Origin: Undibacterium pigrum
GTDB lineage: Bacteria; Pseudomonadota; Gammaproteobacteria; Burkholderiales; Burkholderiaceae_D
Assembly: GCF_003201815.1 (NCBI RefSeq)
Contig: NZ_QJKB01000005.1
Coordinates: forward strand, 124,001-188,000
Length of the DNA: 64,000 nucleotides
Direction: 5' to 3'
Below are positions 3,982 to 21,687 of the stretch, one piece after another. Each line of letters opens with the position of its first letter. Position 1 is the first letter of the stretch. The notes under the pieces were generated by a model. The model saw only the letters and a program-made list of their open reading frames with translations. It was not told the DNA's origin and did not search any database. The translations under genes and the position numbers were made by a program.

Positions 3982-4434
3982 ATGACTACCAGTAAAGAAT
4001 CTTATGGCGGTTTTATCCCTCTGTATGCAGTCGCAATGAGCGATGCCATTGCCAGTGGCGACGCTGCAAAAATGAGCGCAGCACGTGATGCCGCTTTCAG
4101 CCACCTGGCAGCCGCTGCCGATGTTGCCCGTCTGCTGCCTGAGCTGGAAAGCGCGATCAAAAGCAAGGGCGGTGTCATCCGCCCTCTGTATGCAGTCACG
4201 ATACAAGATGCCGTCGCCCGTGGCGATCAGGTGGAAATTGCCCGCATCAAATCTGAACTTGCTTCCTACGGCAATCTGCTCGGCGGTGCCAGTAACTCTG
4301 CCGCGGCTTTTCACCCTGTCACACCTTATGGCGTCGCCATACAGGACGCGCAGGCACGTGGCGATCAGGCCGAAGTGGATCGCCTGAAAGAGCTTGCCCA
4401 AAGCCTGCTGGCACAACTCAACGCCGGTAAATAA
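3982..4434 (+). CDS. DUF1843 repeat protein, candidate substrate of the adjacent radical SAM enzyme
   Basis: A 150-residue protein with an excellent AAGGAG ribosome site. It carries three copies of a motif built on (L/P)Y(A/G)V followed by about eight residues and a GD pair: Y15 to GD26-27, Y70 to GD81-82 and Y116 to GD127-128. This is the DUF1843 signature as I know it. There is no Cys and no signal peptide. A radical SAM/SPASM gene follows by 55 bases and a second, two-repeat DUF1843 protein lies beyond it. A small repeat protein next to a SPASM enzyme usually indicates a ribosomally made peptide that is post-translationally modified. I recall a family name referring to a GDL-motif peptide and its radical SAM maturase but cannot verify it. 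Which residues are modified is unknown. Confidence 0.75.
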   Translation: MTTSKESYGGFIPLYAVAMSDAIASGDAAKMSAARDAAFSHLAAAADVARLLPELESAIKSKGGVIRPLYAVTIQDAVARGDQVEIARIKSELASYGNLLGGASNSAAAFHPVTPYGVAIQDAQARGDQAEVDRLKELAQSLLAQLNAGK

Positions 4435-4489
4435 GCACCGCCCATGATCCCGGATGCCAGCTTGCTGGCATTTGCCACCGGAGCCAAGT

Positions 4490-5968
4490 ATGGAACAAAT
4501 TCTCGCATCTGAATCATCTACACCATTTCAAGCGTCGCAGCCCGCCAGGGCACGCACTCTGTCTGACCTCAATGGCCATACGCCTGTGCATGTGGTGTGG
4601 GAAATTACCCTCTCCTGCAATTTGAAATGCAGTCACTGCGGCTCACGTGCAGGCAAGCGCAGGGTAGGTGAACTCTCCACTGAAGAAGCTTTCTCGGTGA
4701 TTGATCAACTGGCCGCTCTGGGCACGCGTGAAATCACTTTGATCGGTGGCGAAGCTTTCTTGCGCAAGGACTGGCTGCAACTGGTAGAACGCATAGCCGG
4801 TCATGGCATACGGGTAGGCATGCAAACCGGTGCCCGTAACCTCAATACTGCCAGGCTGGAAGCAGGCAAGCAGGCTGGTCTGTTTGGTATAGGTGTGTCC
4901 ATCGATGGCATGAAGGATTATCACGACAGGGTGCGCGGTGTCATCGGCTCCTGGAATGATGCCCTGCGTGCCATGGAAACTGCCAGGTCCCTGGGGCTGG
5001 GTGTCAGCTGCAATACCCAGATAGGTGCAGAAACCATAGATCAGCTGGAGCCACTGTTCAACCGCATCATCGAAGCAGGTGCCACTCACTGGCAATTGCA
5101 AATTACGGTGGCCATGGGCAATGCTGTAGATAACGACCACCTGTTGCTGCAGCCACACCGTGTGCTGGAACTCATGCCCTTGCTGAACCGGCTTTACCAT
5201 GAAGGCCAGCAACGCGGCCTGTTGCTGACCTTTGGCAACAACCTTGGCTACTTTGGTCCCTTCGAGCATCACTGGCGTGGCCTGGGGGATGAAACCCTGC
5301 ACTGGACGGGATGTGCTGCCGGCCAGAATGTCATCGGCCTTGAAGCTGATGGCACCATCAAGGGCTGCCCATCACTGGCGACAGAAACCTATGGTGGTGG
5401 CAATGTCCGTGACACTGCCGTGGCAGAGTTGTGGAACACGTCCGAGGCTTTGCACTTTGGCCGCATGCGCAATATCGATTCACTGTGGGGCCATTGCCGC
5501 ACCTGCTACTACGCCGATGTTTGTCGTGGTGGTTGTACCTGGACTTCAGATTCCCTGTTCGGCAAGCCTGGCAATAATCCCTATTGCCATTACCGCGCAC
5601 TGAAGCTGGAAAAACGTGGCATCCATGAAAAAATCCGCAAAGTGGCAGCAGCGCCTGACAAGCCTTTTGCCATAGGCAGGTTTGAATTGTATGAGGAAGC
5701 CATTCCAGGCCGCCAGGTGTTACCTGCAGAACCTGAAGCAGCGCCACGCGTGGCAGAACGTACCAGCAGCAATCCCCTGCCTGAACTGGATCTGTGCCGA
5801 GGCTGCAATGAATACATCTGGCCAGATGAAACCGAGTGCCCGCATTGCCATGCCGATGTCGCCGCAGCTGCAAAAAAATACGCAGTTGAAGAAGCCAGGC
5901 GGCAAGCCGTCATGACAGAACTTAAGAGCGTACTCGACCGCTTGCAAGTGCTTACCAGCACAGCCTGA
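4490..5968 (+). CDS. Radical SAM/SPASM peptide maturase with C-terminal zinc ribbon
   Basis: A 492-residue enzyme from the ATG at 4490 (GGAG seven bases upstream); an ATG at 4454 lacks a ribosome site. The SAM-binding cluster is C43-x3-C47-x2-C50, followed by GGE at 86-88. The SPASM region holds C275, C293, C336, C339, C345, C349 and C366, enough to bind auxiliary Fe-S clusters. After it comes an unusual tail: a four-Cys zinc ribbon (C436, C439, C450, C453) and a charged helix. SPASM enzymes modify ribosomal peptides by forming thioether, C-C or other bonds. The substrates here contain no Cys, so a thioether is unlikely. Flanking DUF1843 genes are the obvious substrates; the zinc ribbon may help hold them. 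Confidence 0.85.
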   Translation: MEQILASESSTPFQASQPARARTLSDLNGHTPVHVVWEITLSCNLKCSHCGSRAGKRRVGELSTEEAFSVIDQLAALGTREITLIGGEAFLRKDWLQLVERIAGHGIRVGMQTGARNLNTARLEAGKQAGLFGIGVSIDGMKDYHDRVRGVIGSWNDALRAMETARSLGLGVSCNTQIGAETIDQLEPLFNRIIEAGATHWQLQITVAMGNAVDNDHLLLQPHRVLELMPLLNRLYHEGQQRGLLLTFGNNLGYFGPFEHHWRGLGDETLHWTGCAAGQNVIGLEADGTIKGCPSLATETYGGGNVRDTAVAELWNTSEALHFGRMRNIDSLWGHCRTCYYADVCRGGCTWTSDSLFGKPGNNPYCHYRALKLEKRGIHEKIRKVAAAPDKPFAIGRFELYEEAIPGRQVLPAEPEAAPRVAERTSSNPLPELDLCRGCNEYIWPDETECPHCHADVAAAAKKYAVEEARRQAVMTELKSVLDRLQVLTSTA

Positions 5969-5995
5969 TGGTCAAAGCCTGGCCATTATTTTTTT
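5968..5995 (+). terminator. Weak hairpin plus T-run after the radical SAM gene
   Basis: ATGGTC and GGCCAT (with one G-T pair) flank a 7-base loop and are followed by seven T at 5989-5995. It starts at the stop codon of the maturase gene and may act as an attenuator before the second DUF1843 gene. Confidence 0.45.
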
Positions 5996-6088
5996 GATGG
6001 CCGGGATGATTTTGGTGTTGAAAAATATTTTCCTTAATCCGCATGGCAGATAACTGATTTTCTGCCAGCATTTCTTGAAGGAGCAGAT

Positions 6089-6388
6089 ATGGTTTCCCCA
6101 ACTAACATCGCACCCACGGCCGCCTTGTATGGTGTCCCTATCCACGAAGCTATCGCCAGTGGTGATCTCAGCAAGATCGTCGCCATCCGCAACCAGGCAC
6201 TCGATTATCTGGCCGCTGCATCAGAAATAGAACGTCTCTTGCCATCCCTTGAATCTGCCATGAAAGCCAAGGGTTTGCCACCACAGGCTTTGTATGGCGT
6301 TGCAATACAGGATGCTGTGACACGTGGTGACCAGGCAGAAATCGCGCGTTTGAAAGCACAAGTGGCTTATTACAGTCGTTTGTTTTAA
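6089..6388 (+). CDS. Second DUF1843 repeat protein
   Basis: A 99-residue protein with an AAGGAG ribosome site 7 bases before its ATG. It has two copies of the same motif as the 150-residue protein upstream: ALYGVPIHEAIASGD near residues 12-26 and ALYGVAIQDAVTRGD near 67-81, joined by a helical segment. There is no Cys. It lacks the third repeat and the linker of its larger paralogue, so the pair probably arose by duplication and gain or loss of a repeat. It is probably a second substrate of the radical SAM enzyme between the two genes. The first copy contains a GDL tripeptide at residues 25-27, the others GDQ or GDA. Confidence 0.75.
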   Translation: MVSPTNIAPTAALYGVPIHEAIASGDLSKIVAIRNQALDYLAAASEIERLLPSLESAMKAKGLPPQALYGVAIQDAVTRGDQAEIARLKAQVAYYSRLF

Positions 6389-6543: not shown

Positions 6544-7881
6544 TCAACCCACCACCTTCTCCGGCGGCGTCACAATCAACACCGAAGGCACAGCCTCAGG
6601 ATTATAAAGACGCAAATAAAAATGCCCTATCCCCGCCGTCCCCAGCATCAGGTTAGGTGTCTCACCTGTACCTGCCACGCCGCAAGGCCAGGGCATGTCT
6701 GACTGGCCGTAATGCTGCCAGCCTTCCTGTCCTATTTTTTCTGCGATCTGGGTCAGGTCAGGGCGCTTCAGATATTGTCCTGCCATGATCATCAATTCAG
6801 CATTGCCGCAGGCACCATGGCAGAGTGAAAAATTACCTATGCCATGTACCCAGGCTGGCATCAGCGAACTGGCGGTAGTTTGTATGGCAGCGTTCAATTC
6901 CTGCATGAGCATGGTATCGTCCGGCATCAGGGCAACATTACGCAGGCGTGAAAGACCTATGCCGGGTGCGCCATGGCACCAGGCCATGTTATAGACAGGT
7001 GGGGCTTCAGCCTGGCTGGCGTCCATGATGCGCAAGTCCGGCCAGTTATTGTGCTGGGCGCTGAACAGGCCGCGTTCATAACGCAAGCCTTCATTGGCCC
7101 CATCCAGATAGCGCTGTTCACCCGTGGCGCGATACAGTTCCAGCAAGGCAGTGACTATGCCAGCTACGCCATGTGAATGCCCGGTCAGGTGTTTTTGTCC
7201 TGGCACATGCATGGTTTCCCATGACCAGCCAGCGTCGCTTTTGCTGGCATGCGCCAGCAAATAATCGCCGTGGCTTTGCGCCATGCTGATGAAGTCAGGG
7301 CGCTGATGTTCCATCCCCAGTTTCAACATCGCTGGTATGGCACCGGCACTGCCACCGATGACATCGATGAACATGGCATCAGGTGCCTGTTCTGCCAGGT
7401 TGGCCATTTCACGCAGACCGCGGGCGATCAGGGCTTCATTTTTTAATAATGTACCTATGCGTACCAGCACATAGGCAAAGCCGCTGCTACCTGCATAAAA
7501 ACCACTGCGCGCTGCACCCTGCAGTTTGTCGGATAGCGATAAGGCCTGGTTCAATGCGCCTTCGAGTACCCGCTTTTGTTGTTTGTCAGCGCTGAACTGA
7601 TGCAACTCAGCCAGGAACAAGGCGATACCGCTGGTGCCACCATACAAGTCACCGGCGAAGGAACGATAAGCGGGCACCCATGCCTGATTCACAGCTTCCA
7701 TGGACCAGCCCAGCCAGTTGCAACGCGCGCCATCCCAGACGGCATCGCGGCATAAATTGCGGCCTATGCGGTCGGCCACGTCGAGATAAACTTCTTTGTA
7801 CGGATTGATAACCACATTGACAGGTGCAGTCATAGGCGCAGTGACAGGTGTAGTCATAGGTACATTGATAGGTGCATTCAT
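6544..7881 (-). CDS. LanC-like zinc lanthionine cyclase
   Basis: A 445-residue protein with the full LanC motif set: a GHSHGVAG box with the probable acid/base His at 237, WCHGAPG with zinc ligand C302, and LCHGACG with ligands C354 and H355. The repeated Gly-rich turns (DLYGGTSGIALFL, FYAGSSGFAYVL) are those of the alpha/alpha toroid. LanC enzymes add Cys thiols to dehydrated Ser or Thr to close (methyl)lanthionine rings. The N-terminus (residues 2-24) is an odd low-complexity Thr/Pro/Val repeat absent from usual LanC proteins. The gene overlaps the HopA1-like gene by 4 bases, implying translational coupling. It is a free-standing cyclase, with no LanM or LanB dehydratase in the window. Confidence 0.9.
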   Translation of the reverse strand: MNAPINVPMTTPVTAPMTAPVNVVINPYKEVYLDVADRIGRNLCRDAVWDGARCNWLGWSMEAVNQAWVPAYRSFAGDLYGGTSGIALFLAELHQFSADKQQKRVLEGALNQALSLSDKLQGAARSGFYAGSSGFAYVLVRIGTLLKNEALIARGLREMANLAEQAPDAMFIDVIGGSAGAIPAMLKLGMEHQRPDFISMAQSHGDYLLAHASKSDAGWSWETMHVPGQKHLTGHSHGVAGIVTALLELYRATGEQRYLDGANEGLRYERGLFSAQHNNWPDLRIMDASQAEAPPVYNMAWCHGAPGIGLSRLRNVALMPDDTMLMQELNAAIQTTASSLMPAWVHGIGNFSLCHGACGNAELMIMAGQYLKRPDLTQIAEKIGQEGWQHYGQSDMPWPCGVAGTGETPNLMLGTAGIGHFYLRLYNPEAVPSVLIVTPPEKVVG

Positions 7882-8915
7882 AACTGCAAGCCTCCGTTAA
7901 ATACGGGTGTTTCAAATAAATTGACTGAATGGCGGTTCAGGTAAGGTGTGCGCATATCTATGCCATTGCTGGCAAAACGCTTTTCTACCGCATTGGCACG
8001 TGCATCCACATTCTGCGAACCCGCCAGCCATGCATCGACCATGCCCTCAGCCACCAGCCTGCATCTGTGCATGCCAAAGCTTTCACCTGTGCCAGGCTCT
8101 TCTGCCACGCCTACGCCATCGGCCAGGGTTTTACAAAACATGGGCGTGACTGGGCGCAGCTTGTTGCCCAGGCTGGCATGCAAGTCCTGTATCAGCGCAG
8201 CCACCATGGAGTAATGGCGTTTGGCGATATATAAAACCGCTGCATCAGCGCGGCGATAGGCACTGGCATCGACCAGGGTTTTATAACGGAAGGGCAGGGC
8301 ATAACGGTTCAGTTGCGTAGTGAGGCCGTACAACAATTCTGCCGCTGCATGAGCTGGTGCATTGAAATAAAAACGGATGAGTTCATAGTCATCAAACTGA
8401 TCAGACAGATTGCTGCCAAAGGCATAGTAAAAGCCCTGCTGCATATCAGCTGTGCCAGGATAGACGCGCAAGTTCACCAGTTCGCCTGCCACCGGAGCCA
8501 TGCCCGGCCATTTGTTGGCGGCGTACTCACCAACGACTGCGGTACGGCTACGTTCACCTTTTTGTATCATGACGCGGCCATCGGGGCTTTGCTGGTAAAT
8601 TTTCCAGCCGGGGTCCCAGCGGTCTGGTGTCTGGTTGGCCTGGCTCAGGTTCGGCACCAGGCTTTGTGATGGCTGTACAGGTTCACCCGCGGCATCGCGT
8701 ACATAGTACATGCCATACAGGCTGGTATTGATGGCGCTGATCAGTGCCTGCACCGGATTGCTCTGGCCGTTTGCCATGGCGACAGGGATGGCTGTGCCGC
8801 CTGCAAATGCATAGCTATTCTGGCTGTGAATTTGCAAGGCCGCGTAGATGCTTTTTAATTCTTCATGTATGGTTGCATTGTTCGTGGCTGCATTGTTTGT
8901 AGATGCGTCATTCAT
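7878..8915 (-). CDS. HopA1-family protein, candidate phosphothreonine lyase
   Basis: A 345-residue protein matching the type III effector HopA1 family through the central QLNRYALPFRYKTL segment near residue 205, a YRRADAAVLY segment near 220-229 and a C-terminal ESFGMHRCRLVAEGM segment near 278-292. In class V lanthipeptide systems such as lexapeptide, a HopA1-like subunit removes phosphate from phospho-Ser/Thr to leave dehydro residues. Here the gene overlaps both the kinase gene (4 bases) and the LanC gene (4 bases), the arrangement expected for a three-part synthetase. No secretion signal or type III genes are nearby, so an effector role is unlikely. Residues 2-15 are a short Asn/Ala/Thr repeat. 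Confidence 0.82.
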   Translation of the reverse strand: MNDASTNNAATNNATIHEELKSIYAALQIHSQNSYAFAGGTAIPVAMANGQSNPVQALISAINTSLYGMYYVRDAAGEPVQPSQSLVPNLSQANQTPDRWDPGWKIYQQSPDGRVMIQKGERSRTAVVGEYAANKWPGMAPVAGELVNLRVYPGTADMQQGFYYAFGSNLSDQFDDYELIRFYFNAPAHAAAELLYGLTTQLNRYALPFRYKTLVDASAYRRADAAVLYIAKRHYSMVAALIQDLHASLGNKLRPVTPMFCKTLADGVGVAEEPGTGESFGMHRCRLVAEGMVDAWLAGSQNVDARANAVEKRFASNGIDMRTPYLNRHSVNLFETPVFNGGLQL

Positions 8916-10021
8916 GATGCCAACTCCCCGGCAAACCCATACAGGGCTGATGCAGCCTGGCGTGGGTTGCGTAAAATATTCTGGCTGACTTGTAATAAGA
9001 TCGCTGCATGATTGGTCATGACGGGTGAGTAATACAAGGATTCAAAAGCAGTTTGCACCATGCGTGCCGCGCCGTATTCTATGCAGCGCATCAGGTAGGG
9101 GTAAGCCTGTGCCTGATCTATACCTGCCGTTTGCACATAGCTGCGCCAGAAGGCGTGGATGGACGGATACATGCCTTCCAGCGGATAGAGGGCCTTGTCA
9201 ACAAAGCTGGATGGATTGAATTCCTGATACAGCGGCATGGAATATATCCATGATGTCAGGTAGGCTTGCAGGATCGCACCTATATCCCAGCTGGCATCAC
9301 CATAGTCAACCAGTTCCCAGTCTATGATGCGAAATGTCAGTTCTCCATTATCGCCGGGATAGACCACACAGTTATCCCACTTCATGTCGCCATGGATGAT
9401 GCTGTCATGACGCCAGCCCTGCGCCAGCCGAGCCAGGTTTTGTTGCAGGTCAGGGTATTGCCTGATGATGCTGCCTAGCTGTTGTACACCACCGCTCAGC
9501 GTATTGCCAGCCTGCATGCTGTTTTGATGAAAGCTTAAAATCCACGGCGTCATGCGCGGAAAATTCTTCAGGTCTTCTGTCTGTAAAGTCTTGCCACGCA
9601 AGGTCTGGTGATAGCTGCCCAGTGCTGCGCCCACCAGATGACCAACTTCAGCAGGAAATGACTTTTTGCGGGCATGAAATTCCGTCAGATTCTCGCCGCC
9701 GGGCAAGAGCCTTATGGTCAGGCAATGGCGGGCTGCATCATGCTCGACAAAACCGGGCATGAGGTTTGCCAGCGCTTCATAACCCTCTTTTTGCGCCATG
9801 CGATAACAGACAGCTTCGCGCTGCATGGTGGAGATTGCCATGGGCTCGACTTCCTTGATTTGCTTGACGAACAAGCCAGAGCCATCGCGCCGTATGATTT
9901 TGTAATTGCGGTTGCGGCGGCCTGCTTCTACCACCATGAAATCACCATCGACGACCACGGCGGGTGGTATCGTGCCTCGCGCCAGCAGATAGTGGGCCAT
10001 ATTGGAAGCGGTCAAAAACAT
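8912..10021 (-). CDS. APH/protein-kinase-fold enzyme, candidate peptide kinase of the lanthipeptide system
   Basis: A 369-residue kinase of the aminoglycoside phosphotransferase fold. K53 and E69 fit the ATP-binding Lys-Glu pair, the catalytic loop is HGDMKWDN at 210-217 (D212, N217) and the metal-binding motif is IDWE with D234. All key residues are present, so it should be active. AAGGAG lies 9 bases before the ATG. In class V lanthipeptide clusters an APH-like kinase phosphorylates Ser/Thr of the precursor, and a HopA1 lyase then eliminates phosphate. Its stop overlaps the HopA1-like start by 4 bases. A true antibiotic kinase is the alternative, but the coupling with HopA1 and LanC argues against it. 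Confidence 0.85.
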   Translation of the reverse strand: MFLTASNMAHYLLARGTIPPAVVVDGDFMVVEAGRRNRNYKIIRRDGSGLFVKQIKEVEPMAISTMQREAVCYRMAQKEGYEALANLMPGFVEHDAARHCLTIRLLPGGENLTEFHARKKSFPAEVGHLVGAALGSYHQTLRGKTLQTEDLKNFPRMTPWILSFHQNSMQAGNTLSGGVQQLGSIIRQYPDLQQNLARLAQGWRHDSIIHGDMKWDNCVVYPGDNGELTFRIIDWELVDYGDASWDIGAILQAYLTSWIYSMPLYQEFNPSSFVDKALYPLEGMYPSIHAFWRSYVQTAGIDQAQAYPYLMRCIEYGAARMVQTAFESLYYSPVMTNHAAILLQVSQNILRNPRQAASALYGFAGELAS

Positions 10022-10071
10022 TCCTGATACTCCTTAGGTTACAGCAAGAAATTTGGTTTGCCAGTATGCCG

Positions 10072-10104
10072 AAACCCCAGGTGCAAAATTTGCACTTGGG
10101 GTTT
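10072..10104. other. Near-perfect 33-base palindrome between precursor and kinase genes
   Basis: An AAACCCCA arm and its complement flank GTGCAAA and its complement, with one mismatched pair and almost no loop. It lies about 50 bases before the kinase ATG and is transcribed with it. It could stabilise the upstream precursor mRNA end, be a processing site or bind a regulator. Confidence 0.6.
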
Positions 10105-10123
10105 ACCAAGAATGAGTCAGCCC

Positions 10124-10151
10124 ACGGTCGGGAATATATCCCGACCGTTTT
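10124..10151. terminator. Strong hairpin, T-run oriented rightward
   Basis: ACGGTCGGG at 10124-10132 and CCCGACCGT at 10140-10148 form a perfect 9-bp stem with an AT loop. The TTTT tail lies on the right side, so it is a classical terminator only for rightward transcripts. For the leftward operon it is a stable structure 55 bases after the precursor stop codon. Confidence 0.6.
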
Positions 10152-10202
10152 ATTCAGACTGATCAAACTGCTCTGTACAGCTTTAGTTCATGCACTTTTC
10201 CG

Positions 10203-11348
10203 TTAGCAAAGTCCAGTTGCAGTGACATTGCCGCAAATTGGCATGTTGTGAGTAGGAATAACAGGACCTATCGTCATAGGCAGGCAAGTGTGGCCGCAAA
10301 TTGGCATGTTATGGGTAGGGATAACCGGACCCACCGTCATAGGCAAGCAAGTGTTGCCACAAATTGGCATATGATTGGTAGGGATAACAGGGCCAACAGT
10401 CATGGGCAGGCAAGTGCAACCCAGCAGGTGCGTAGGTGCTACAGTTTGCGTACACACCGTGGCAGCTGTATGGCAAACAGCGGCAGCAACGGTGGGGCAA
10501 TTCGGTGGTGCCGACAGCGGTGGCTGGCAACCATGCCACGCGGTATGACCGCAAAATTGTGGCGCGGCCGTGCAATGCTGGACACCGGTTGGACCGACTT
10601 GCTGTTGTGCCTCCAGAGTAGGTGGTGGGCAAACAAAGCAATGCGTAGCGGCAGTCGGATTCATTGCCTGAGCTTGTTGTGGTGCTGCCTGATAGGCGTC
10701 AACAGTGGCTGGAGGGCAAACGAAGCAATGGGTATTGGCAGTAGGATTGGTGGTTGGATGAGCCGCCATTTGTGCCTGTGGAGGAGGGCAAGCCTGCCAC
10801 GCCGTATTGCCGCAAACTTGAGGTGCCGCAGTGCAATGCTGAACGCCAGTAGGACCAATCGGAGGGCAAGGCTGCCACGCAGTGTTGCCGCAAAATTGTG
10901 GAGCAGCGGTGCAATGCTGGACTCCTGTTGGACCGACATTGGCTTGTGCTGCATATTGTGGTGCAGGCGCTGCTGCACCCGCGAAATTTTGCGCTTGTGC
11001 CGGTGCAGCCAGGCCGCCATGGAGTACGGGTGTCTGCGTTTGTACGATGGTGGTATTGAAGGTCGTCGTCACCGGGATATGCGTACCCGCCTGGCATTGT
11101 ATGCCGCACAGAGGGTTATTGTGGGTAACGATATGGCATATCACTGGGCTGGTGACATGCTGGCAAACCGGTCCGACCAGCGTCTGCGGCAGGCACTGAG
11201 GTGGCTGTGTCACATGGCAGATGACAGGTGAGGTATGGGGCAGGCATTGTGGTGGTTGTGTCACGATGTGACAAACCACGGGGCTGGTCTGTGGCAGGCA
11301 TTGTGGTAGCAATGTCTGTATGTGGCAAATTGGTAATTGAGTAGTCAT
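10203..11348 (-). CDS. Giant Cys/Thr repeat protein, candidate multi-ring lanthipeptide precursor
   Basis: A 381-residue protein with AGGAG ten bases before its ATG. I count 34 Cys, about 52 Thr, 4 Ser, no Lys, no Arg, one Asp and one Glu. Four repeat types occur. Residues 3-81 alternate Thr and Cys with a period near nine. GPTGVQHCTAAPQ-type modules lie at 139-162, 165-188 and 252-275. THCFVC modules lie at 201-215 and 230-244. Three 21-residue CLPMT modules lie at 313-375. Twenty Cys have Thr exactly five residues before, nine have Thr six before and one has Ser five before. That regularity suits methyllanthionine rings made by the kinase, lyase and cyclase downstream. There is no recognisable leader or signal peptide. 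A structural, metal-binding or disulfide-rich protein remains possible. Confidence 0.8.
   Translation of the reverse strand: MTTQLPICHIQTLLPQCLPQTSPVVCHIVTQPPQCLPHTSPVICHVTQPPQCLPQTLVGPVCQHVTSPVICHIVTHNNPLCGIQCQAGTHIPVTTTFNTTIVQTQTPVLHGGLAAPAQAQNFAGAAAPAPQYAAQANVGPTGVQHCTAAPQFCGNTAWQPCPPIGPTGVQHCTAAPQVCGNTAWQACPPPQAQMAAHPTTNPTANTHCFVCPPATVDAYQAAPQQAQAMNPTAATHCFVCPPPTLEAQQQVGPTGVQHCTAAPQFCGHTAWHGCQPPLSAPPNCPTVAAAVCHTAATVCTQTVAPTHLLGCTCLPMTVGPVIPTNHMPICGNTCLPMTVGPVIPTHNMPICGHTCLPMTIGPVIPTHNMPICGNVTATGLC
10224..10412 (-). repeat. Three tandem 63-bp repeats encoding CLPMT modules
   Basis: Residues 313-375 of the repeat protein consist of three 21-residue units that start with CLPMT(V/I)GPVIPT and end in PICG(N/H). 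The only differences are V/I, N/H swaps and NH/HN order. In each unit a Thr lies six residues before the second Cys. Confidence 0.85.
10524..10595 (-). repeat. Third copy of the GPTGVQHC module
   Basis: Residues 252-275 repeat the T-C-T-C-T-C module with Thr-to-Cys spacings of 5, 6 and 5, about 63 residues after the second copy. The copy differs at three positions near its end (His and Gly substitutions). Confidence 0.8.
10785..10934 (-). repeat. Two adjacent copies of the GPTGVQHC module
   Basis: Residues 139-162 and 165-188 are two 24-residue copies separated by two residues. Each has three Thr and three Cys in strict alternation with spacings 5, 6 and 5. A fourth, divergent copy ends the separate peptide encoded at 11573-12013. 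Confidence 0.85.
11106..11342 (-). repeat. N-terminal Thr-x4-Cys array
   Basis: Residues 3-81 contain nine Thr-Cys pairs: T3-C8, T12-C17, T21-C26, T30-C35, T39-C44, T47-C52, T56-C62, T66-C71 and T75-C81. Recurrent units are TSPV(V/I)CH(I/V) and TQPPQCLP. Confidence 0.85.
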
Positions 11349-11572
11349 AGTAAACTCTCCTGAGAGTGGCGCTACAATTCATGAATGAAAAAAGGAACAC
11401 AGAGGAAAACTACAGCAACAAACTGATGGCAACACTGCATGCCTGCAATAAAAATGAGGCAATGAAGCGCACCATGCTTCACACATTCGCATGAGAAAAA
11501 GGACATCGATCAAAGGACGCCAACCAAGGCCCCTTCACATCACGAATATTCAATTCAATGATTTCAATTTTT

Positions 11573-12013
11573 TTATTTAGGTGTATCCGGGCAGCCCTGC
11601 CATGCAGTGTTACCGCACTGGGCAGGGGCTTGTGTGCAGTTCTGTACACCCGTAGGTCCACCAGCCACCGCGGCCTGGGCCGCATTGGCAGCCGCTTGCC
11701 CGCTTTGTATCGGGCCACTGAAAAAGCTGAGTCTGGTGTCAGCCACGGTCTTGCCTTTGCGTATCAGTTCGGCATCTGCCTTGATCCAGACGTAGCTGGT
11801 CTCCAGTGGATTATTGGCGCTGGCAGATGCCGTGGCCGTATGTAAAATCGCCTCGCTGGGGATTTCATAATATTCATTCAGTACCGCATTCAGATAAAGG
11901 CGCGTATAGCCTTCCAGAGCGGAGTTACCCACAAAGCCATTGAGCAAAACCATATCGGGAATATTCGCCGGATCTGCTGCCAGTACCTCTACAAAATACT
12001 TGTCTTTCGCCAT
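11573..12013 (-). CDS. Leader-type peptide with one Thr/Cys core module, candidate lanthipeptide precursor
   Basis: A 146-residue protein from the ATG at 12013 with GGAG seven bases upstream (a GTG one codon earlier is less likely). Residues 1-90 form a folded-looking, charged domain (LLNGFVGNSALEGYTRLYLN, then YYEIPSEAILH). An Ala-rich linker follows and ends in Gly-Gly at 118-119. The last 27 residues carry the same module as the repeat protein next door: T121-C126, T127-C133 and T136-C141, spacings 5, 6 and 5. These are its only Cys. This is the layout of a leader plus core peptide with a double-glycine boundary. It is the first identified gene of the putative operon, 224 bases before the repeat-protein gene. 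It may be a conventional precursor or supply a leader in trans. Confidence 0.75.
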   Translation of the reverse strand: MAKDKYFVEVLAADPANIPDMVLLNGFVGNSALEGYTRLYLNAVLNEYYEIPSEAILHTATASASANNPLETSYVWIKADAELIRKGKTVADTRLSFFSGPIQSGQAAANAAQAAVAGGPTGVQNCTQAPAQCGNTAWQGCPDTPK

Positions 12014-12142
12014 CACAGTTCTCCATTCGGTTGAAACTGAAACACACTCAGGGACAGGCTTTTTTGAAATCCCTGAAGCAGGTTTCAGAAATTGGGTGCA
12101 ACACGATCAAAAACAGGCAGAAGCCTGGCATCTGCCTTGCAG

Positions 12143-12262
12143 CTAAAGCGCGCATCTGTTTATGCCAGAGAAGCAGTCAATACAGCCAATACCACCAGAA
12201 AGCGCGCCTACAACAAATCCCGGTGCCGGTGATGCAATGTCAGCTACAAAAAAAAGCGACAA
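12143..12262 (-). CDS. Speculative 39-residue peptide upstream of the precursor genes
   Basis: A short frame starts at TTG 12262 with AGGTGG a few bases upstream. It reads like a hydrophobic leader ending in GALSGG, followed by a 15-residue tail with three Cys (IGCIDCFSGINRCAL). It is on the same strand as the lanthipeptide genes, 130 bases upstream of the first one. There is no ATG or GTG start and the composition could be chance. I list it because the Gly-Gly/Cys pattern fits a small precursor peptide. Confidence 0.2.
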   Translation of the reverse strand: MSLFFVADIASPAPGFVVGALSGGIGCIDCFSGINRCAL

Positions 12263-12586
12263 AAATCCACCTGAGCTGGCTGGAGGCTGGCTCAAAATGA
12301 TGTGACTGGATGGAAGTTTGCTTTGCCGGAGAGAGAAAATTTACCGCATATGCTTATTACTTTATTTGCATGTCAATTATGCAAGGTTAGTTTATTATTA
12401 ATATTTGTCAAGGACGAAATGCGTAACAAATTATTACTATCTTGATTTGTCAGGAATATTGCTTTTAGAACAGGAATGCCATCGCAGGCAGGATTGAGAT
12501 GGATGCTGACAACGAGGTGGTAGGCGATGCAAAAAGTCAGTCACCGGGACAATGATGGCCGTGGCTGGCACGTATGCACGTATGCA

Positions 12587-12628: not shown

Positions 12629-13348
12629 TCAGATACTGCGTTGATTTACTCGTTTGGCCAATTGCTCTGCAGTTTCTTTGCGTTCGCTATACCTGTCCAC
12701 CAAATAAGGCGCAACGTCGCGAGTCAGCAATGTGAACTTCATCAGCTCTTCCATCACGTCAACCACACGGTCGTAATATGAAGAAGGCTTCATGCGCCCA
12801 GCTTCGTCAAATTCAAGAAAAGCTTTTGCCACCGATGATTGATTTGGTATCGTGATCATGCGCATCCAACGCCCTAATATCCTCATTTGATTGACGGCAT
12901 TGAATGACTGTGAACCGCCGGAGACTTCCATCACTGCCAGCGTTTTGCCCTGGGTGGGCCGGACCGCACCAACGGACAAAGGTATCCAGTCTATTTGTGC
13001 CTTCATGATGCCCGTCATCGCGCCATGGCGCTCCGGTGAAGTCCACACCATGCCTTCAGACCATTGCGCCAGTTCACGCAGCTCACGTACTTTAGGATGA
13101 CTGTCCGGTACCTCATCTGGCAACGGCAGACCGTGAGGATCAAAGACGCGAGTTTCAGCGCCCATTGCCTGCAGCAGACGAGCTGCTTCCAGCGTCAGCA
13201 GTTTGCTGTAGGAACGTTCACGCAATGAACCGTAAAGAAGCAGGATGCGTGGTGCATGACTGGCACGTGCCGGTGCAAATAATTGCTCAGCTTCCGGCAG
13301 CTGGAATAAATCCTGATGCAGGCTGGGCAACTCATTTGTTAAGGACAC
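12629..13348 (-). CDS. arsH: ArsH, NADPH-dependent FMN reductase / organoarsenical oxidase
   Basis: A 239-residue flavoprotein. [12 protein letters not shown] near the start is the FMN phosphate-binding loop; [12 protein letters not shown] and [14 protein letters not shown] are conserved ArsH segments. ArsH oxidises trivalent methylated and aromatic arsenicals to less toxic pentavalent forms. The start is GTG at 13348, backed by AGGAGGG just upstream and lying inside the end of arsC (17-base overlap), so translation is probably coupled. It is the last gene of the arsR-aqpS-arsC-arsH operon. Confidence 0.92.
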
Positions 13349-13760
13349 GATTACCCTCCTTGTCGATGACTTTTTCGCCGTCTTCCTTGATGAATTCGCT
13401 TAGCTGTGGAGCAGGCAATATATCCAGCACGACTTCTGAGGGGCGGCATAGTCTCGTACCCACAGGCGTGACTACCACAGGGCGGTTCATCAGTATGGGA
13501 TGTGCGACCATGAAGTTGATGAGTTCATCATCCGTCCATTTGCCATCATCCAGATCGAGAGCTTCATAAGGCGTATCTTTTTTGCGCAAGAGTTCGCGCA
13601 CCGGCATATTCATCGCGGCAATCAGCTCTTGCAGTTTTGCCTTGCCTGGCGGCTGCTTCAGGTATTCAATCACTTCTGGTTCTGCGCCACTATTGCGTAT
13701 CAGCGCCAGGGTATTGCGTGAGGTGCCGCAATCAGGGTTGTGGTAGATGGTAATCGTCAT
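13332..13760 (-). CDS. arsC: ArsC, glutaredoxin-dependent arsenate reductase
   Basis: A 142-residue enzyme starting at ATG 13760; a TTG four codons upstream is less likely. The catalytic Cys is C11 in [11 protein letters not shown], the signature of the Escherichia coli plasmid-type ArsC. The later RLCRPSE segment supplies an arsenate-binding Arg. It reduces As(V) to As(III) with glutathione and glutaredoxin. No ArsB or Acr3 pump gene is present. As in Sinorhizobium meliloti, the As(III) product may leave through the aquaglyceroporin encoded 17 bases upstream. Confidence 0.93.
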
Positions 13761-13777
13761 ATGCTTATCCAAAAAAA

Positions 13778-14449
13778 TTAATCATGCTGGGGTTTTTTTA
13801 ACGGATACAGCCAGCAAAATACTGCTGTGGCTACAGCCGCCCCCAGTAGCTGGGCAATAATGAAACCTGGTGTATCTACAGGGCGTATGCCTGCAAAAGT
13901 ATTGCTGGCGGCGCGCGCCAGAGTGACTGCAGGGTTGGCAAATGAAGTTGATGCTGTGAACCAGTATGCCGCCGTGATGTAAGCAGCAACGGCAAAGGGT
14001 GTCACTGCCGGGCGGCTGCGGTTACAGGAAATGATGACGGCGATCAAACCAAAGCTGGCGACAAACTCACTCCACCATTGCGCCATGCCGGTGCGCACAT
14101 GTTCCGATGCAAAAAACAGCGGTGCGTCAAACATGGCATGGGCTGCAGCGACACCAGCAAAAGCCCCCAGCACTTGCACCACAATATATGGCAGCACTTC
14201 CTTGCCAGGCATATTCTTCTGGTAAGCTTCCGACAGCGTAACTATAGGATTGAAATGCGCGCCCGATATAGTCCCAAACATCAATATCAAAGCGATCAGG
14301 CCAGCACCAGTGGCTATCGCATTCGCCAGCAAGGCGATAGCGACATTGCCTCCTGCCAGGCGTTCTGCCATGATGCCAGAACCAAGCACCACGGCCAGCA
14401 GGAATGCCGTACCCAGGCCTTCAGAAACCAGGCGTCGTGTCATGCTCAT
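13778..14449 (-). CDS. aqpS: AqpS-like aquaglyceroporin of the ars operon
   Basis: A 223-residue membrane protein with six predicted helices and two half-helix pore motifs: GAHFNPIVT, where the usual NPA is NPI, and TSFANPAVTLAR. MIP channels conduct water, glycerol and uncharged As(OH)3. The gene order arsR-aqpS-arsC-arsH is that of Sinorhizobium meliloti, where AqpS releases arsenite formed by ArsC down its gradient and replaces an active pump. The NPI variant in the first motif is common in this subgroup. The start is ATG 14449; a second ATG lies two codons in. Confidence 0.9.
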   Translation of the reverse strand: MSMTRRLVSEGLGTAFLLAVVLGSGIMAERLAGGNVAIALLANAIATGAGLIALILMFGTISGAHFNPIVTLSEAYQKNMPGKEVLPYIVVQVLGAFAGVAAAHAMFDAPLFFASEHVRTGMAQWWSEFVASFGLIAVIISCNRSRPAVTPFAVAAYITAAYWFTASTSFANPAVTLARAASNTFAGIRPVDTPGFIIAQLLGAAVATAVFCWLYPLKKPQHD

Positions 14450-14537
14450 GATGGACTTTTCATTATGTGTGAGGCCAGTCTGAGGTCAATGTGACGCAGT
14501 TCATAAAATACTTTACTAAGCATAAGGGCAAGAGAAT

Positions 14538-14867
14538 TTATTGAGGTATCACGCATTGCTGGATTTGCACTGGCGTGCAAGGATTGCCACCGCAGCAGTT
14601 CTCAGTCAGAAACCCTAGCATCTGGTTCATCGTTGACATATTTGCTGAATAAAACACAAAGCGCCCTGCCTGGCGTGAAATTACCAGGTCAGCATGTGAT
14701 AACTCTTTTAAATGAAATGAAAGGGAAGAGGGCGGTATCCCCAGTTGCTCACTGATCTTGCTGGCAGCCAGACCGGCCGGCCCTACCTGCACCAGCAAAC
14801 GGAATAAAGCCAGGCGCGATTCTTGTGCCAGCGCTGCCAGTGCTAGCAATACTTTTTTCGTTTCCAT
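14538..14867 (-). CDS. arsR: ArsR arsenite-responsive repressor
   Basis: A 109-residue winged-helix protein of the ArsR/SmtB family, with the recognition helix around PPSSLSFHLKELSHADLV. It lacks the usual CxC site in the DNA-binding helix. Instead it has C91, C92, C97 and C105 near the C-terminus. That resembles the Acidithiobacillus-type ArsR, which binds As(III) through three C-terminal Cys. It should repress the downstream aqpS-arsC-arsH genes and itself from the palindrome just upstream. Confidence 0.92.
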   Translation of the reverse strand: METKKVLLALAALAQESRLALFRLLVQVGPAGLAASKISEQLGIPPSSLSFHLKELSHADLVISRQAGRFVFYSANMSTMNQMLGFLTENCCGGNPCTPVQIQQCVIPQ

Positions 14868-17233: not shown

Positions 17234-18730
17234 TTAGTTGAGCACCATCTGCACCACAATCAGGCGGCCACCATCCTGTTTTGACATCAGCAATTGCTTG
17301 CCATCTTCCAGCGCTATTTTTTCACCTATGGGCACCAGCGTTTTGCTGGCGACATCGGTCAGTTCAGGCATGCCTTCATTGACCAGATACCAGATGTCAT
17401 TGTGATAGACGAAATAGCCAACCCGCTTTTTCTGATCATCCGTCAGGCGTTCATTGGGGACGATATTGCGGTTGATATGCCACTGGAACAAGGATTGATT
17501 GGTGTACACCATCAAGCGGTGATTGTCAGGGCGGAAGTTGGCATCCTTGCGTGAAGAATATAAATTCAGTACCGGCAAGGGACCAGAAAACGGCGTCTTG
17601 CAGAAAGGGCAAACCGCCTTCGTCTTATTGTCGAAGATATACCATTTTTGTTCGCAAGACTTATTGCTGCATGGTTGCAGTAAATCGATAGACTTGACCA
17701 GGGCATTTTCCCATTCATCTGCCGTAGGACGTGCATTTGGGTCTTGCAAGCCTTCGGTAAATGCTTTCAGTATCAGCTCAGACAGATATGGTCCGGTAAT
17801 CTGGTAAGGGATCTTGCTGGTATCTTTCCACGGTAATTCAGATGGCTTGACATTGGCCAGCTTGATGCGGTTGCTGGCATCTGTAGGATGCTCGATGAAC
17901 AGCGCATTCTTACCCATCGTCAATTCTTCATCCTGCTGGGCGTCAGCAGCATGTACCTTGTCACCACGCAGGGGATGGCGGAACAGCAGATACATATAGA
18001 TGAGTACCGCCAGGGCATGCCTGTCAGTCACAATGGATGGCAATTTACGGTTGGGGTCATGCTTGTCCAGATGCGCCGTGGCGACACATTCCGGTGCGAT
18101 GAAATCAGGCGTGCCAACCACATCCGGCGGGTATTTGCCAGGCACAACCAGGCCGTCGATATCAATCAGGCAGGCGCGTCCAGTCGACGGGTCTATCAAG
18201 ACATTGCGATAACTGAGATCACTGTGAGCCAGGCCAGCCGAGTGCATGCGCCTCACCGCGCGCGCTATCATCAGGCATAGCTTGAGTTGCAGCATCCAGT
18301 CGCCCAGTTCACGCGGGTCTAGGAACTTATTGCGATTGCTGGCAGAGGCAAACCATTTACCTTCTTTTTCCTTGCCCTTGATTTGCAACATATCATTGTT
18401 GCGCGAACCAATCTTGAAGAAAAACTCAGGGTCGTAAAATGGCACGACCACACCTATCTTGCCATTGTATTCAACCATGGCGGTTGGCCAGCAAAACAGT
18501 TTTTTCCAGTAATCGCCACCAATCTGATTAAAAATCCGGTCGCGGTAAGTGCCGGTGATGACAGCGACACGTTCTTTGGTAGCGACGTCGGCTTCACCGC
18601 GAAAAAAGGCGACGACATAATTTTTGGTCGGTGAAAAATACACATCCTTCATGCCGCCAGATGCCTTGATTTCGTCGAAAAATTCAACGGTACTTCCATC
18701 AGAAGCGGTAAGGGAAACAATTTTACTCAT
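17234..18730 (-). CDS. Ter-associated Ser/Thr-type protein kinase with zinc ribbon
   Basis: A 498-residue protein with a kinase domain over residues 20-340. The catalytic loop is HSDLSYRN at 169-176 (D171, N176), the metal motif IDIDG at 189-193 and the activation-loop end GTPDFIAPE to 214. A two-pair Cys zinc ribbon follows near 350-380, then a C-terminal beta-rich domain that could be FHA-like. AAGGA lies six bases before the ATG, nine bases after the PP2C gene. A kinase, a PP2C phosphatase and vWA proteins next to TerD genes form the TerY-P triad described for tellurium-resistance loci. They are thought to control the Ter membrane complex by phosphorylation. The target is unknown. Confidence 0.85.
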   Translation of the reverse strand: MSKIVSLTASDGSTVEFFDEIKASGGMKDVYFSPTKNYVVAFFRGEADVATKERVAVITGTYRDRIFNQIGGDYWKKLFCWPTAMVEYNGKIGVVVPFYDPEFFFKIGSRNNDMLQIKGKEKEGKWFASASNRNKFLDPRELGDWMLQLKLCLMIARAVRRMHSAGLAHSDLSYRNVLIDPSTGRACLIDIDGLVVPGKYPPDVVGTPDFIAPECVATAHLDKHDPNRKLPSIVTDRHALAVLIYMYLLFRHPLRGDKVHAADAQQDEELTMGKNALFIEHPTDASNRIKLANVKPSELPWKDTSKIPYQITGPYLSELILKAFTEGLQDPNARPTADEWENALVKSIDLLQPCSNKSCEQKWYIFDNKTKAVCPFCKTPFSGPLPVLNLYSSRKDANFRPDNHRLMVYTNQSLFQWHINRNIVPNERLTDDQKKRVGYFVYHNDIWYLVNEGMPELTDVASKTLVPIGEKIALEDGKQLLMSKQDGGRLIVVQMVLN

Positions 18731-18739
18731 CAGGCATCC

Positions 18740-20599
18740 TTAGTAAACAATTGCGATGGTGCGGTCGTCGTGATTTCCTTGTGACCAGAAATCCAGCCAG
18801 TCCAGTAATTTCTGTGCTTTTTCATCGGTTTCTTCGTCATGCACAATCGCTACCGTCGCATTCAGGTCTTGCCATAGCGCGTCCCAGTCCTTGCTGCGTG
18901 CCAGGCGTGCCTCAGTTTCAAATTTCGGGTCAGAGACGCCATCCGACATCAGGATGAAGGCGGTGACATCGTCATACACATCGAAACGCAGGCGTTTCTC
19001 CAATGCTTCAGCGGTGACTTCATCCTTGTCCAGAAAGCGCGTCTGTCCCGAGAATTCACCACTGTCCACTTCACCTAGCAAACTAACGCCTTTTGTCGCG
19101 CTATACACTCCGACAGCGCCATCGCCTACCCAATAGGCTGCGCACAAAGTGCCGAATGAAAATTTCTTGCAAATGGAAATCAATGCTGTACTGGAAAAAT
19201 CCTTGGGCTTTGCATCAGCCACTTTATTGACTTCTTCCATAATTTTGACAACAGAGTGATAAGCCGCATGCGAGACTGTCAGGTATAACTCATTGCGTAG
19301 TTCTGACCACAATTTCTTGGTAAGGGCCGCATCCAGATTTTCCGTGCGCGCGCGTGAATACTTTTCAGCCGCAAGAGCGATGGAATCAGACTTGCCGGCA
19401 TTCAGAGTGTTCCTGATATGCTGCAAGGCAGTGTCGCAAATAATCTGCGAACCACGACGTGAATAACTGCAACTACCAGCGCCATCTGACACGATGGCAA
19501 TATTCCAGTCAGACTCTGCCAGATATTCTATGCTGAAATCATCATCGCGAAATGAACCCACATGCGCATGTGAACGACCGCGCTTGCTGGCAGCGACGAT
19601 ATTAAAATCCTTGCCCTTGACGAATTTTGCATCTTCATCAGGCTTCCAGTAAATTGCATCTTTATCAGAAGGCTTATTGAGCCACATGGATTTTGGATTA
19701 GGCGTCACCGTGATATTCAAGGTCGCCAGGCGATTTGATTTTTCATTGGTAAACCGGTAAGTGATGCGGATAGGGAAGTCCCCCTGAACCGCAGGTGTAC
19801 CACTCAATTCTTCCAGCTCATCGTTGTATCTCAAGCCCAGTTGTTCAGGAATGACGATATCAAGTATCTGATAATTCTCGCTTTGCGGCTGGTCTGGTGT
19901 TACTTTTGAAGTATAGGCTTCCTGGCATCGCGCATTCGAGACCACAAAGCGGATATTCTTGTGATCTGAAACGATGACAGGAGCTTTCGTTGTAGGCATA
20001 TCGCTGCTCGCAGTTGCCTGCGCGGTTGTCGGGGCAATTGTAGGTGCGATTGTCGGTGCGGCAGTGCCGGGCGCAGCGGGGGCCGATGCAGTAGCAGAGT
20101 CAGCAGCAGAAGCTGGGACAGGAGCAGAAGCAGTATCAATAGCCGGAGCCGGAGCAGGAGCCTGGCCGGTTACGGTATCAGGGGCAGGGCCTGTGTTGAT
20201 ATCGGCACCAGGAACAACTTGAGATGGTATTTTCATTGCATCACTTTCTGTATGACGCGCCAGGGCAGGGTTTTCAGGCCTGGCTTCTTGAGACTGGGTG
20301 GGCTTGGGTGGGGCGTAAGCAAGAGGAGGCAGTTCGCTAAATTCATGCTTTTTGACGCCGGCAGGCGTGGGCAAATCTCGTGGCGGGAAAAATTTCGATG
20401 CAGCAGAATGAGGATTGACCGATACAGGTATGGTCCTCTTGTAGGCATTGAAATCCTTGAGCATGTACTCCTCAAGTTTGTTGACAAAATTCTCAAAGCG
20501 TACATCACCAATGTATTGATCAATCTCGGATTTGCTGTTGCCATTTTGTTCCAGCAGTATGTGCGCATACAATCCTATCGCAGTGCTTTTTGAGCTCAC
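18740..20599 (-). CDS. PP2C-type phosphatase with Pro/Ala linker and Ig-like domain
   Basis: A 619-residue protein in four parts. Residues 1-60 are helical. Residues 130-205 are a low-complexity Pro/Ala/Thr linker with TIAP repeats. Residues 212-300 look like a putative Ig-like fold (ELSGTPAVQGDFPIRITY is typical of He_PIG-type domains). Residues 335-619 are a PP2C phosphatase with RDDDF, SDGAGS (D372), LMSDGVSD and HDDRT metal-binding motifs. PP2C enzymes remove phosphate from Ser/Thr; here the obvious counterpart is the kinase encoded just downstream. An Ig-like domain in a cytosolic phosphatase is unusual and may dock on vWA or TerD partners. Confidence 0.85.
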   Translation of the reverse strand: MSSKSTAIGLYAHILLEQNGNSKSEIDQYIGDVRFENFVNKLEEYMLKDFNAYKRTIPVSVNPHSAASKFFPPRDLPTPAGVKKHEFSELPPLAYAPPKPTQSQEARPENPALARHTESDAMKIPSQVVPGADINTGPAPDTVTGQAPAPAPAIDTASAPVPASAADSATASAPAAPGTAAPTIAPTIAPTTAQATASSDMPTTKAPVIVSDHKNIRFVVSNARCQEAYTSKVTPDQPQSENYQILDIVIPEQLGLRYNDELEELSGTPAVQGDFPIRITYRFTNEKSNRLATLNITVTPNPKSMWLNKPSDKDAIYWKPDEDAKFVKGKDFNIVAASKRGRSHAHVGSFRDDDFSIEYLAESDWNIAIVSDGAGSCSYSRRGSQIICDTALQHIRNTLNAGKSDSIALAAEKYSRARTENLDAALTKKLWSELRNELYLTVSHAAYHSVVKIMEEVNKVADAKPKDFSSTALISICKKFSFGTLCAAYWVGDGAVGVYSATKGVSLLGEVDSGEFSGQTRFLDKDEVTAEALEKRLRFDVYDDVTAFILMSDGVSDPKFETEARLARSKDWDALWQDLNATVAIVHDEETDEKAQKLLDWLDFWSQGNHDDRTIAIVY

Positions 20600-20614
20600 A
20601 ATATCTCCTGGACG

Positions 20615-21664
20615 CTAGCCGCGTGAACGATTGACATCAAAGCCATCGCCTTCACTATAGCCAAAATTACCCTCCTTGTTACAGGCCGGGCAAGTGGCTG
20701 CTCCCGGCCCTTTCAGGCACATGATCTGGCCACAGGCGCACATCGCAAAACCGATGGGGTTGCCGCAATGCGGGCAACCCGGGCTGCCGAGCAAGGCATC
20801 AGAATTGACGGTGCTGACCAGGGCACGCTGGTCTGAGTAATCATAATAATCTTTTTCCATGGGATAAACCCCGGTCAGATTAAACTGATCTATCTTGAAT
20901 GCATGGCCTTCCAGTTGCAGATGGTTTTGCAGGCGCTCATATTTGATCAGGTAAGGCAGTTTATTGGTCGAACACTGGCCAGTGACTACGACAATATCTT
21001 CATCAACCACAGCCGCATCGACGATATCACCAATTTTTTTCATGATGGAATCATCCAGCTTGGCCAGATTGACACCCTCTACATTGCTCATGGAGACGCT
21101 GCGGCTTTGCGCAACCACCGACATGGTGACCCAGTCGACAAAGCGTTTGAAATCTTCTTCAGAATTGGTATCAAGCAGGATGACATTCTCGGTCAACTGG
21201 CGCAGTGTGCCCAGTGCCGCATGTTTGCCTATGCCTATCGCCACCAGGGTGACTTTGCTGGCATATTCAGCCTTCCAGCGTGTCATGGCCTTGCTGATGT
21301 CGTCGGTAGGTTTGCCATCGGTCATGAGATAGACTACCGGCTTCCAGTCGCCTTTTTTGTCCATGGTGCTCTTGACTACATTGCGGTCTATCTCATCCAT
21401 CAGATGCATGAGGCCCGCACCCAGGGAGGTGCCGGAACCTACTGGCAAACGTGGCGGGTAGAAAAACACCAATTCCGTCAAAGGAGTCAGGGTGCGCGGC
21501 TTTCCCGCAAAGACAATGGTGGACAGATACACCGTTTCCAGTGCGTGCGGATCAGTTCTCAGCTTTGTCACAAGGCGCTCCAGGCCCTGCTGCAACTGAC
21601 GCAGATTATCTCCGACCATGGACTCAGAAACGTCGAGCATCAGGAAAATAGGTAGGCGGCGCAT
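20615..21664 (-). CDS. vWA protein with C-terminal zinc ribbons (TerY-C type)
   Basis: A 349-residue protein from ATG 21664 with AAGGA just upstream; an upstream TTG is rejected. The vWA domain has an intact metal-ion site: DVSES near the start, a conserved Thr in GSGTSLGAG and Asp in MTDGKPTDD. The last 60 residues hold CPHCGNP, CACG, and CPAC pairs that form one or two zinc ribbons, as in TerY-C domains. vWA proteins scaffold complexes through bound metal. It lies 15 bases upstream of the PP2C gene in the same operon. Confidence 0.85.
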   Translation of the reverse strand: MRRLPIFLMLDVSESMVGDNLRQLQQGLERLVTKLRTDPHALETVYLSTIVFAGKPRTLTPLTELVFFYPPRLPVGSGTSLGAGLMHLMDEIDRNVVKSTMDKKGDWKPVVYLMTDGKPTDDISKAMTRWKAEYASKVTLVAIGIGKHAALGTLRQLTENVILLDTNSEEDFKRFVDWVTMSVVAQSRSVSMSNVEGVNLAKLDDSIMKKIGDIVDAAVVDEDIVVVTGQCSTNKLPYLIKYERLQNHLQLEGHAFKIDQFNLTGVYPMEKDYYDYSDQRALVSTVNSDALLGSPGCPHCGNPIGFAMCACGQIMCLKGPGAATCPACNKEGNFGYSEGDGFDVNRSRG

Positions 21665-21687
21665 CAAAAATCCTTGCAAGAATAATG

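Follow-up and report, generated by a model that had tools for sequence, protein, structure and literature searches.

Known lanthipeptides are short peptides, often antibiotics. Class V has so far been reported only in actinobacteria according to an excerpt of PMC12328550, and its class Vb form (class V with a LanC) is already described and known from SmoA in the excerpts of PMC12328550 and PMC12291118. Distant gene pairs in Cyanobacteria, Planctomycetes and Proteobacteria are mentioned in a passage of PMC7794033, and HopA1 proteins near or fused to LanC were mined in 2021, as given in a passage of PMC8153245. The present analysis concerns a cluster of five genes in a 64,000-nucleotide stretch (the window) of contig NZ_QJKB01000005.1, which lies within the 6.4-Mb genome of Undibacterium pigrum (G000), with all coordinates given as window positions. 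The cluster quite probably encodes a class Vb-type synthetase (LanK, LanY and LanC) acting on two co-encoded substrates to give a polypeptide with many rings. An earlier note, made from this DNA alone, had set the known class V systems, a kinase and a lyase in Actinobacteria, against the set here with its LanC; the set is present, and its novelty is rejected with class Vb already in print (PMC12328550, PMC12291118) and HopA1-LanC pairs mined (PMC8153245). The class Vb enzymes are known, and it is the substrate architecture that is new.

The enzyme genes and their relatives

The five genes all lie on the minus strand in the downstream order 146-residue protein, 381-residue repeat protein, APH kinase, HopA1 protein and LanC, with 4-base overlaps at both enzyme junctions (APH/HopA1 and HopA1/LanC). 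These coordinates bear out what the earlier note had described, three enzymes coupled by 4-base overlaps on the same strand 3' of two Thr/Cys products. The LanK-like Ser/Thr kinase of the APH family (8912..10021, minus strand) scores 36.4 bits against PF01636 (cut-off 23.2), and its residues K53, E69, H210, D212, N217 and D234 are invariant in 24 of 24 aligned sequences. The LanY-like phosphothreonine lyase of the HopA1 family (7878..8915, minus strand) is a stand-alone PF17914 protein (138 bits, over the Pfam cut-off) with the Arg/Lys/Arg/Tyr positions of CaoY present and, in the structure model, a predicted fold resembling that of LxmY. The LanC-like zinc cyclase (6544..7881, minus strand) reaches 201 bits against PF05147, also over the Pfam cut-off, and H237, C302, C354 and H355, presumably the catalytic His and the zinc ligands, are invariant in 25 of 25 aligned sequences. 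Judged from its sequence, this LanC is nearest to the cyclase part of LanM, scoring 292.7 bits against TIGR03897 (LanM; cut-off 304) with only profile positions 544-932 of 932 covered and matching 6st5 with an E value of 4.8e-22. The ratio of nonsynonymous to synonymous substitution rates (dN/dS) is 0.05-0.15 for the enzymes. Two strong hairpins (10124-10148 and 10072-10104; 10072..10148, minus strand, fold z -4.39) separate the substrate genes from the enzyme genes, and among four relatives folded a similar pair occurs in L002, L006 and L042 (z -3.1, -4.3 and -9.2) and a single hairpin in L003 (z -1.85). These form a candidate attenuator, possibly favoring substrate over enzyme output.

Related loci comprise 23 from a pattern-based scan of a species-genome collection and further ones from PF17914 searches at genus, order, phylum, family and class level. 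HopA1 occurs in 16 of the 43 genomes of the genus and is sparse beyond it, at 2 of 399 genomes sampled from the order and 4 of 398 from the phylum (each of the three counts includes the window's own genome); around G650 it occurs in 2 of 298 and 2 of 385 genomes (G650 itself counted). A LanC match is present in all 16 HopA1-bearing genus genomes, with three more having LanC and no HopA1, one of these at a contig end. All three enzyme functions together with upstream sequence are available in 28 loci, and a Ser/Thr-Cys repeat protein accompanies them in 25, including 15 of 15 in the genus. This association, the invariant catalytic residues in the aligned relatives and the LxmY-like lyase model uphold the earlier reading of the enzymes as kinase, lyase and LanC paired with Thr/Cys substrates, and the search for APH-HopA1-LanC neighborhoods that the earlier note had proposed yields L069, L023 and L024 as the only exceptions. 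The loci with long repeat substrates are spread over Proteobacteria, Acidobacteria, a planctomycete and others, with the highest Cys count (47) in a magnetococcal 459-residue protein that contains a masked stretch (L013). L020 counts as a repeat locus by virtue of a small open reading frame (ORF) with three units, L054 by two units with 7 Cys in total, and L014 by 7 Cys. The 28 loci include two cut by a contig end (LanC in L004 and the fused HopA1-LanC in L023) and leave out L012/L057 and L043, whose contigs stop short of the upstream region, L022, which begins within HopA1, L062 (LanC at the contig end), L019 (no LanC), L059 and L061 (HopA1-domain matches with no match to the window kinase or LanC) and the duplicates L045-L050, L052, L053, L055, L056 and L058, each twin carrying the same 400-base probe.

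Substrate proteins and Ser/Thr-to-Cys spacing

The second substrate (10203..11348, minus strand) is a Thr/Cys/Pro repeat protein of 381 residues with 34 Cys, 52 Thr, 4 Ser, 1 Asp, 1 Glu and neither Lys nor Arg, its repeat units being joined by Pro/Gln/Ala-rich linkers. In an alignment with five relatives, 154 of 170 Cys cells (91%) and 84% of Thr cells are conserved, with Pro, Gln and Gly similar to Thr, and for His the figure is 62 of 115 cells (54%). The first substrate (11573..12013, minus strand) is 146 residues long from the ATG at 12013, or 147 from a GTG at 12016. It has 31 homologues, and consists of a conserved Cys-free N-terminal domain (approximately residues 1-100) and a Thr/Cys tail. 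The tail, GPTGVQNCTQAPAQCGNTAWQGCP (11588..11659, minus strand), contains three Thr-Cys pairs with gaps of x4, x5 and x4, and its Thr-Cys unit recurs in the 381-residue protein. Close homologues mostly retain this tail, P0034 and P0036 have lost it or carry it truncated, and the five distant rows of the alignment do not conserve it. Neither protein reaches a Pfam or NCBIfam family cut-off. Both ORFs behave as real genes, with low dN/dS against four relatives (0.09-0.16 for the 381-residue protein and 0.06-0.11 for the 146-residue protein). Of the two Thr/Cys peptides named in the earlier note the Thr/Cys content stands and the small size does not, one being a 381-residue protein and the other mostly a predicted folded domain.

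The AlphaFold2 model of the 146-residue protein is β-rich, with a block mean confidence (pLDDT) above 90 for residues 21-60 and 71-80, and comparison of the N-terminal domain model with the PDB gave no noteworthy match. Used as a query, the protein finds matches in 6 of 43 genus genomes, the same six that carry a cluster of the window type (type 1). A profile of the approximately 100-residue domain matches in 15 of the 28 loci, which include Beta- and Alphaproteobacteria, Magnetococcales, Acidobacteria and Thermomicrobiaceae; 13 of the 15 were themselves among the sequences aligned for the profile or are closely related to these, leaving L068 (E 8e-15) and L023 (E 1.7e-7) as independent matches. 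In type 1 Undibacterium, Sideroxydans and Magnetococcales the domain forms a protein of its own beside a separate repeat protein, and in Bradyrhizobium, L016 and L068 it is fused to the repeats. Of the 35 proteins retrieved with the Bradyrhizobium N-terminal domain, 33 have no Cys in their first 115 residues. Nine further loci in the genus (type 2) carry the enzymes with repeat proteins, such as those with GPTSSECTQTCEA repeats, and no match to the domain.

In the 381-residue protein 30 of 34 Cys have a Ser or Thr at positions -2 to -6, compared with a shuffled mean of 18.5 and none of 1000 shuffles as high. The same spacing holds for 485 of 522 Cys in 22 substrates (shuffled 328), a set that omits L044, L020, L023, L024, L068 and L069, and for 728 of 747 core Cys (shuffled 372) in the 35 relatives found through the Bradyrhizobium domain and not through Cys content. 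Counted over unique sequence windows, Ser/Thr peaks at -5 (52% and 50% in the 22-substrate and 35-relative sets, respectively) and at -3 (29% and 28%), with an additional +2 peak of 43% in the 35-relative set that fits a repeated C-P-T-x4-C pattern. In 152 control ORFs, taken as the longest non-overlapping ORFs of at least 250 residues in 12 loci and not proved to be genes, Ser/Thr is flat at 8-13% and 385 of 890 Cys meet the spacing (shuffled 381.5). Assessed one by one, 13 of 21 substrates are equalled or exceeded by no more than 9 of 1000 shuffles. The acidobacterial L016 has Thr upstream of 3 of 23 Cys and Ser or Thr upstream of 23 of 23, as expected if the rule concerns residues that can be dehydrated. 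Thr-only usage belongs to some branches and not to the whole system, and a rule confined to Thr is rejected; the earlier statement that the substrate is almost entirely Thr rather than Ser describes this locus (52 Thr, 4 Ser) and does not extend to L016, which keeps the rule with Ser.

These features also bear on the possibility that only the 146-residue protein is a substrate, with the 381-residue protein in an unmodified, accessory role such as metal binding. The placement of the leader-like domain on the 146-residue protein and its absence from the 381-residue protein would suit such a division, as would the arsenic genes that adjoin the cluster here and in four of five type 1 relatives. 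The proposal is nevertheless improbable, since the type 2 loci combine enzymes and repeat proteins with no domain match, the fused relatives link the domain to long repeats, and the upstream Ser/Thr spacing is unexpected for a metal-binding protein. The poor retention of His beside well kept Cys points the same way, and metal binding through His is thought unlikely as the main role of the repeats.

Proposed mechanism and its alternatives

The chemistry predicted here follows from the enzyme families, and a product with many rings from the substrates being long repeats. LanK would phosphorylate Thr side chains, LanY would eliminate the phosphate to give dehydrobutyrine, and LanC would add a Cys thiol, mostly 3 or 5 residues further on, to form small methyllanthionine rings. 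Repetition of this cycle along the chain could use approximately 30 possible Thr-to-Cys pairs in the 381-residue protein and 3 in the 146-residue protein, with the product presumably remaining a long chain. The Cys-free β-rich domain is most likely a recognition (leader) domain; in Bradyrhizobium and others it shares a chain with the repeats, and in the window, where it sits on a separate protein, it would recruit the enzymes in trans. A more tentative proposal, advanced with rather less than even confidence, is that the products are poly-thioether proteins with tens of lanthionines that are used whole as structural, surface or stress material and not as antibiotics, the domain being a new folded leader acting in cis or, where split (Undibacterium and Sideroxydans), in trans.

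Dehydration might also occur alone, with dehydrobutyrine made, the Cys left free, disulfide-bonded or reacted with other thiols, and LanC acting elsewhere. L019 and L069 pair kinase and lyase with Thr-rich, Cys-poor substrates in line with this idea. It is very improbable for the window, since LanC belongs to one translationally coupled operon with kinase and lyase and its zinc and catalytic positions are conserved, and since the spacing of Cys to upstream Ser/Thr is strongly marked. In another alternative the same rings form, and proteases encoded in other parts of the genome release many short lanthipeptides from the repeat protein, a mixture of ordinary peptides being the final product. Multi-core precursors occur in other families of ribosomally synthesized and post-translationally modified peptides, the repeat units are set apart by their Pro/Gln/Ala-rich linkers, and S8 peptidases flank two distant relatives (L014 and L069). 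Such processing is judged unlikely, as units abut in many substrates with no common cleavage site visible and the scanned flanking proteins of the window include no peptidase or peptide exporter.

Several observations weigh against a ring-forming class Vb system with two substrates. The kinase scores 88 bits against NF038156 (LxmK), well short of the cut-off of 315. The 381-residue protein has no recognizable leader, and the domain profile finds no match in 13 of 28 loci, nine of these being the type 2 loci of the genus, so that the N-terminal domain is likely a leader, though not an indispensable one. No peptide exporter or peptidase was recognized among the 13 flanking window proteins scanned, a scope within which the earlier statement that no transporter or protease is encoded nearby holds. 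The downstream Ser/Thr counts are also raised, at 397 for the same 522 Cys and 610 in the 35-relative set, and within the latter the gene neighborhood is known only for P0160 (= L018). In eight of the 21 substrates assessed singly (L007-L011, L015, L054 and L060) 23-231 of 1000 shuffles are as high, in most of them because Ser and Thr are so common. With Thr alone, L009 (8 versus 9.7 shuffled) and L016 (3 versus 9.5) fall below their shuffles and the bias is weak in L011, L017 and L060; in L060 12 of 34 Cys have no Ser/Thr at -2 to -6. The three exceptional loci comprise L069, with LanC present and a Thr/Ser repeat (PQTISFAQ) having only 3 Cys, L023, with the domain and a tail with 1 Cys, and L024, with the domain and a short Cys tail.

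Surrounding genes and comparison with known systems

Convergent with the lanthipeptide cluster is a plus-strand set (3982-6388) in which two DUF1843 proteins, bearing PLYGVxIxDA-type repeats, lie on either side of a radical SAM/SPASM protein that scores 672 bits against TIGR03913 (cut-off 592). The second-best model, TIGR04103, may hint at a likeness to tyramine-excising spliceases. Seven of the 43 genomes of the genus have a radical SAM protein over this cut-off, adjacent to the cluster in the six of the window type and elsewhere in G018. On the other side lies an arsenic-type set of flavin mononucleotide (FMN) reductase, ArsC, MIP channel and ArsR-type regulator (12629-14867, minus strand), present whole or in part beside four of five type 1 relatives and absent beside L003. 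Neither set is taken as part of the lanthipeptide system. A module of a kinase-like protein, a PP2C phosphatase and a VWA/TerY_C protein is located at 17234-21679 (minus strand).

Among the relatives, the eight type 2 loci checked out of nine (L007-L011, L015, L021 and L054) have a conserved 436-454-residue protein upstream of the repeat gene and Ser/Thr-kinase-TPR proteins (two scanned, L008 and L021) beside the cluster; the former is nitrilase-like by eye, and three of its members (L008, L009 and L054) gave no Pfam match when scanned. The acidobacterial L019 (2925-6453), the converse of L016, has kinase (APH) and lyase (HopA1), no LanC, and a 225-residue repeat protein with 42 Thr and no Cys, whose TTxxxGEE motif is taken to be graspetide-like, as well as a 299-residue protein that is ATP-grasp-like by eye with no Pfam match. 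It is perhaps a multi-core graspetide joined to class V dehydration enzymes. In L069 (5870-8774 and 10033-11643) APH and HopA1 share one 725-residue ORF adjoining LanC and the PQTISFAQ substrate, with the S8 peptidase downstream, and in L014 the S8 peptidase is upstream of the substrate. HopA1 is fused to LanC in L024 (Elioraea, 9980-12310, 776 residues) and L023 (Thermomicrobiaceae, 4355-5845, cut by the contig end). LanC in L012 (1977-3274), an Oxalobacteraceae metagenome-assembled genome, appears as two overlapping ORFs of 147 and 285 residues, reflecting a sequencing error or decay. A near-identical repeat unit, PTHxLGCPNTxTC, occurs in Sideroxydans (L005/L004) and in L068, a genome of the window's phylum, through shared descent or transfer.

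Among the matches listed, literature searches showed no published repeat-type or large lanthipeptides and nothing on HopA1 with Undibacterium. If the enzymes act on repeats with tens of Cys, thioether stapling would be a route to long, covalently stiffened polypeptides, the enzyme set could be transferred to laboratory strains, and class V chemistry would reach well beyond Actinobacteria. These loci form a natural series, differing in Thr or Ser, in the presence of LanC and in whether the domain is joined to the repeats, carried separately or absent, with which the use of a leader and the choice of rings can be tested directly. Mining restricted to short peptides beside HopA1 would probably overlook such substrates.

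A typical class V precursor, though this is no strict definition, is short with an N-terminal leader and a C-terminal core, and is matched neither by the 381-residue repeat protein nor by the 146-residue protein with its large domain. Compared with class Va lexapeptide (LxmKYXD) and cacaoidin (CaoKY) the window differs in having LanC and in not reaching the NF038156 LxmK cut-off, and no LanD or LanX of class Va was noticed among the window proteins given to Pfam, a subset of the ORFs. Class II LanM proteins (e.g. LicM2) have the cyclase part that the window LanC resembles most (TIGR03897 and 6st5), whereas the window LanC is stand-alone with no LanM dehydratase part and is below the LanM cut-off of 304. 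The HopA1-LanC "Family 11/20" and "Family 22" are suggested lanthionine synthetases in the passages of PMC8153245, a survey that paired HopA1 with short peptides, and could include the proteins described here. Also among the closest systems is the class Vb SmoA/SmoC of Streptomyces, which in the excerpts has, like the window, separate LanK (PF01636), LanY (PF17914) and LanC proteins. Its product is a peptide from an actinobacterium, whereas the substrates described here are repeat proteins, long and built of Ser/Thr-Cys units, in which a large N-terminal domain is frequent.

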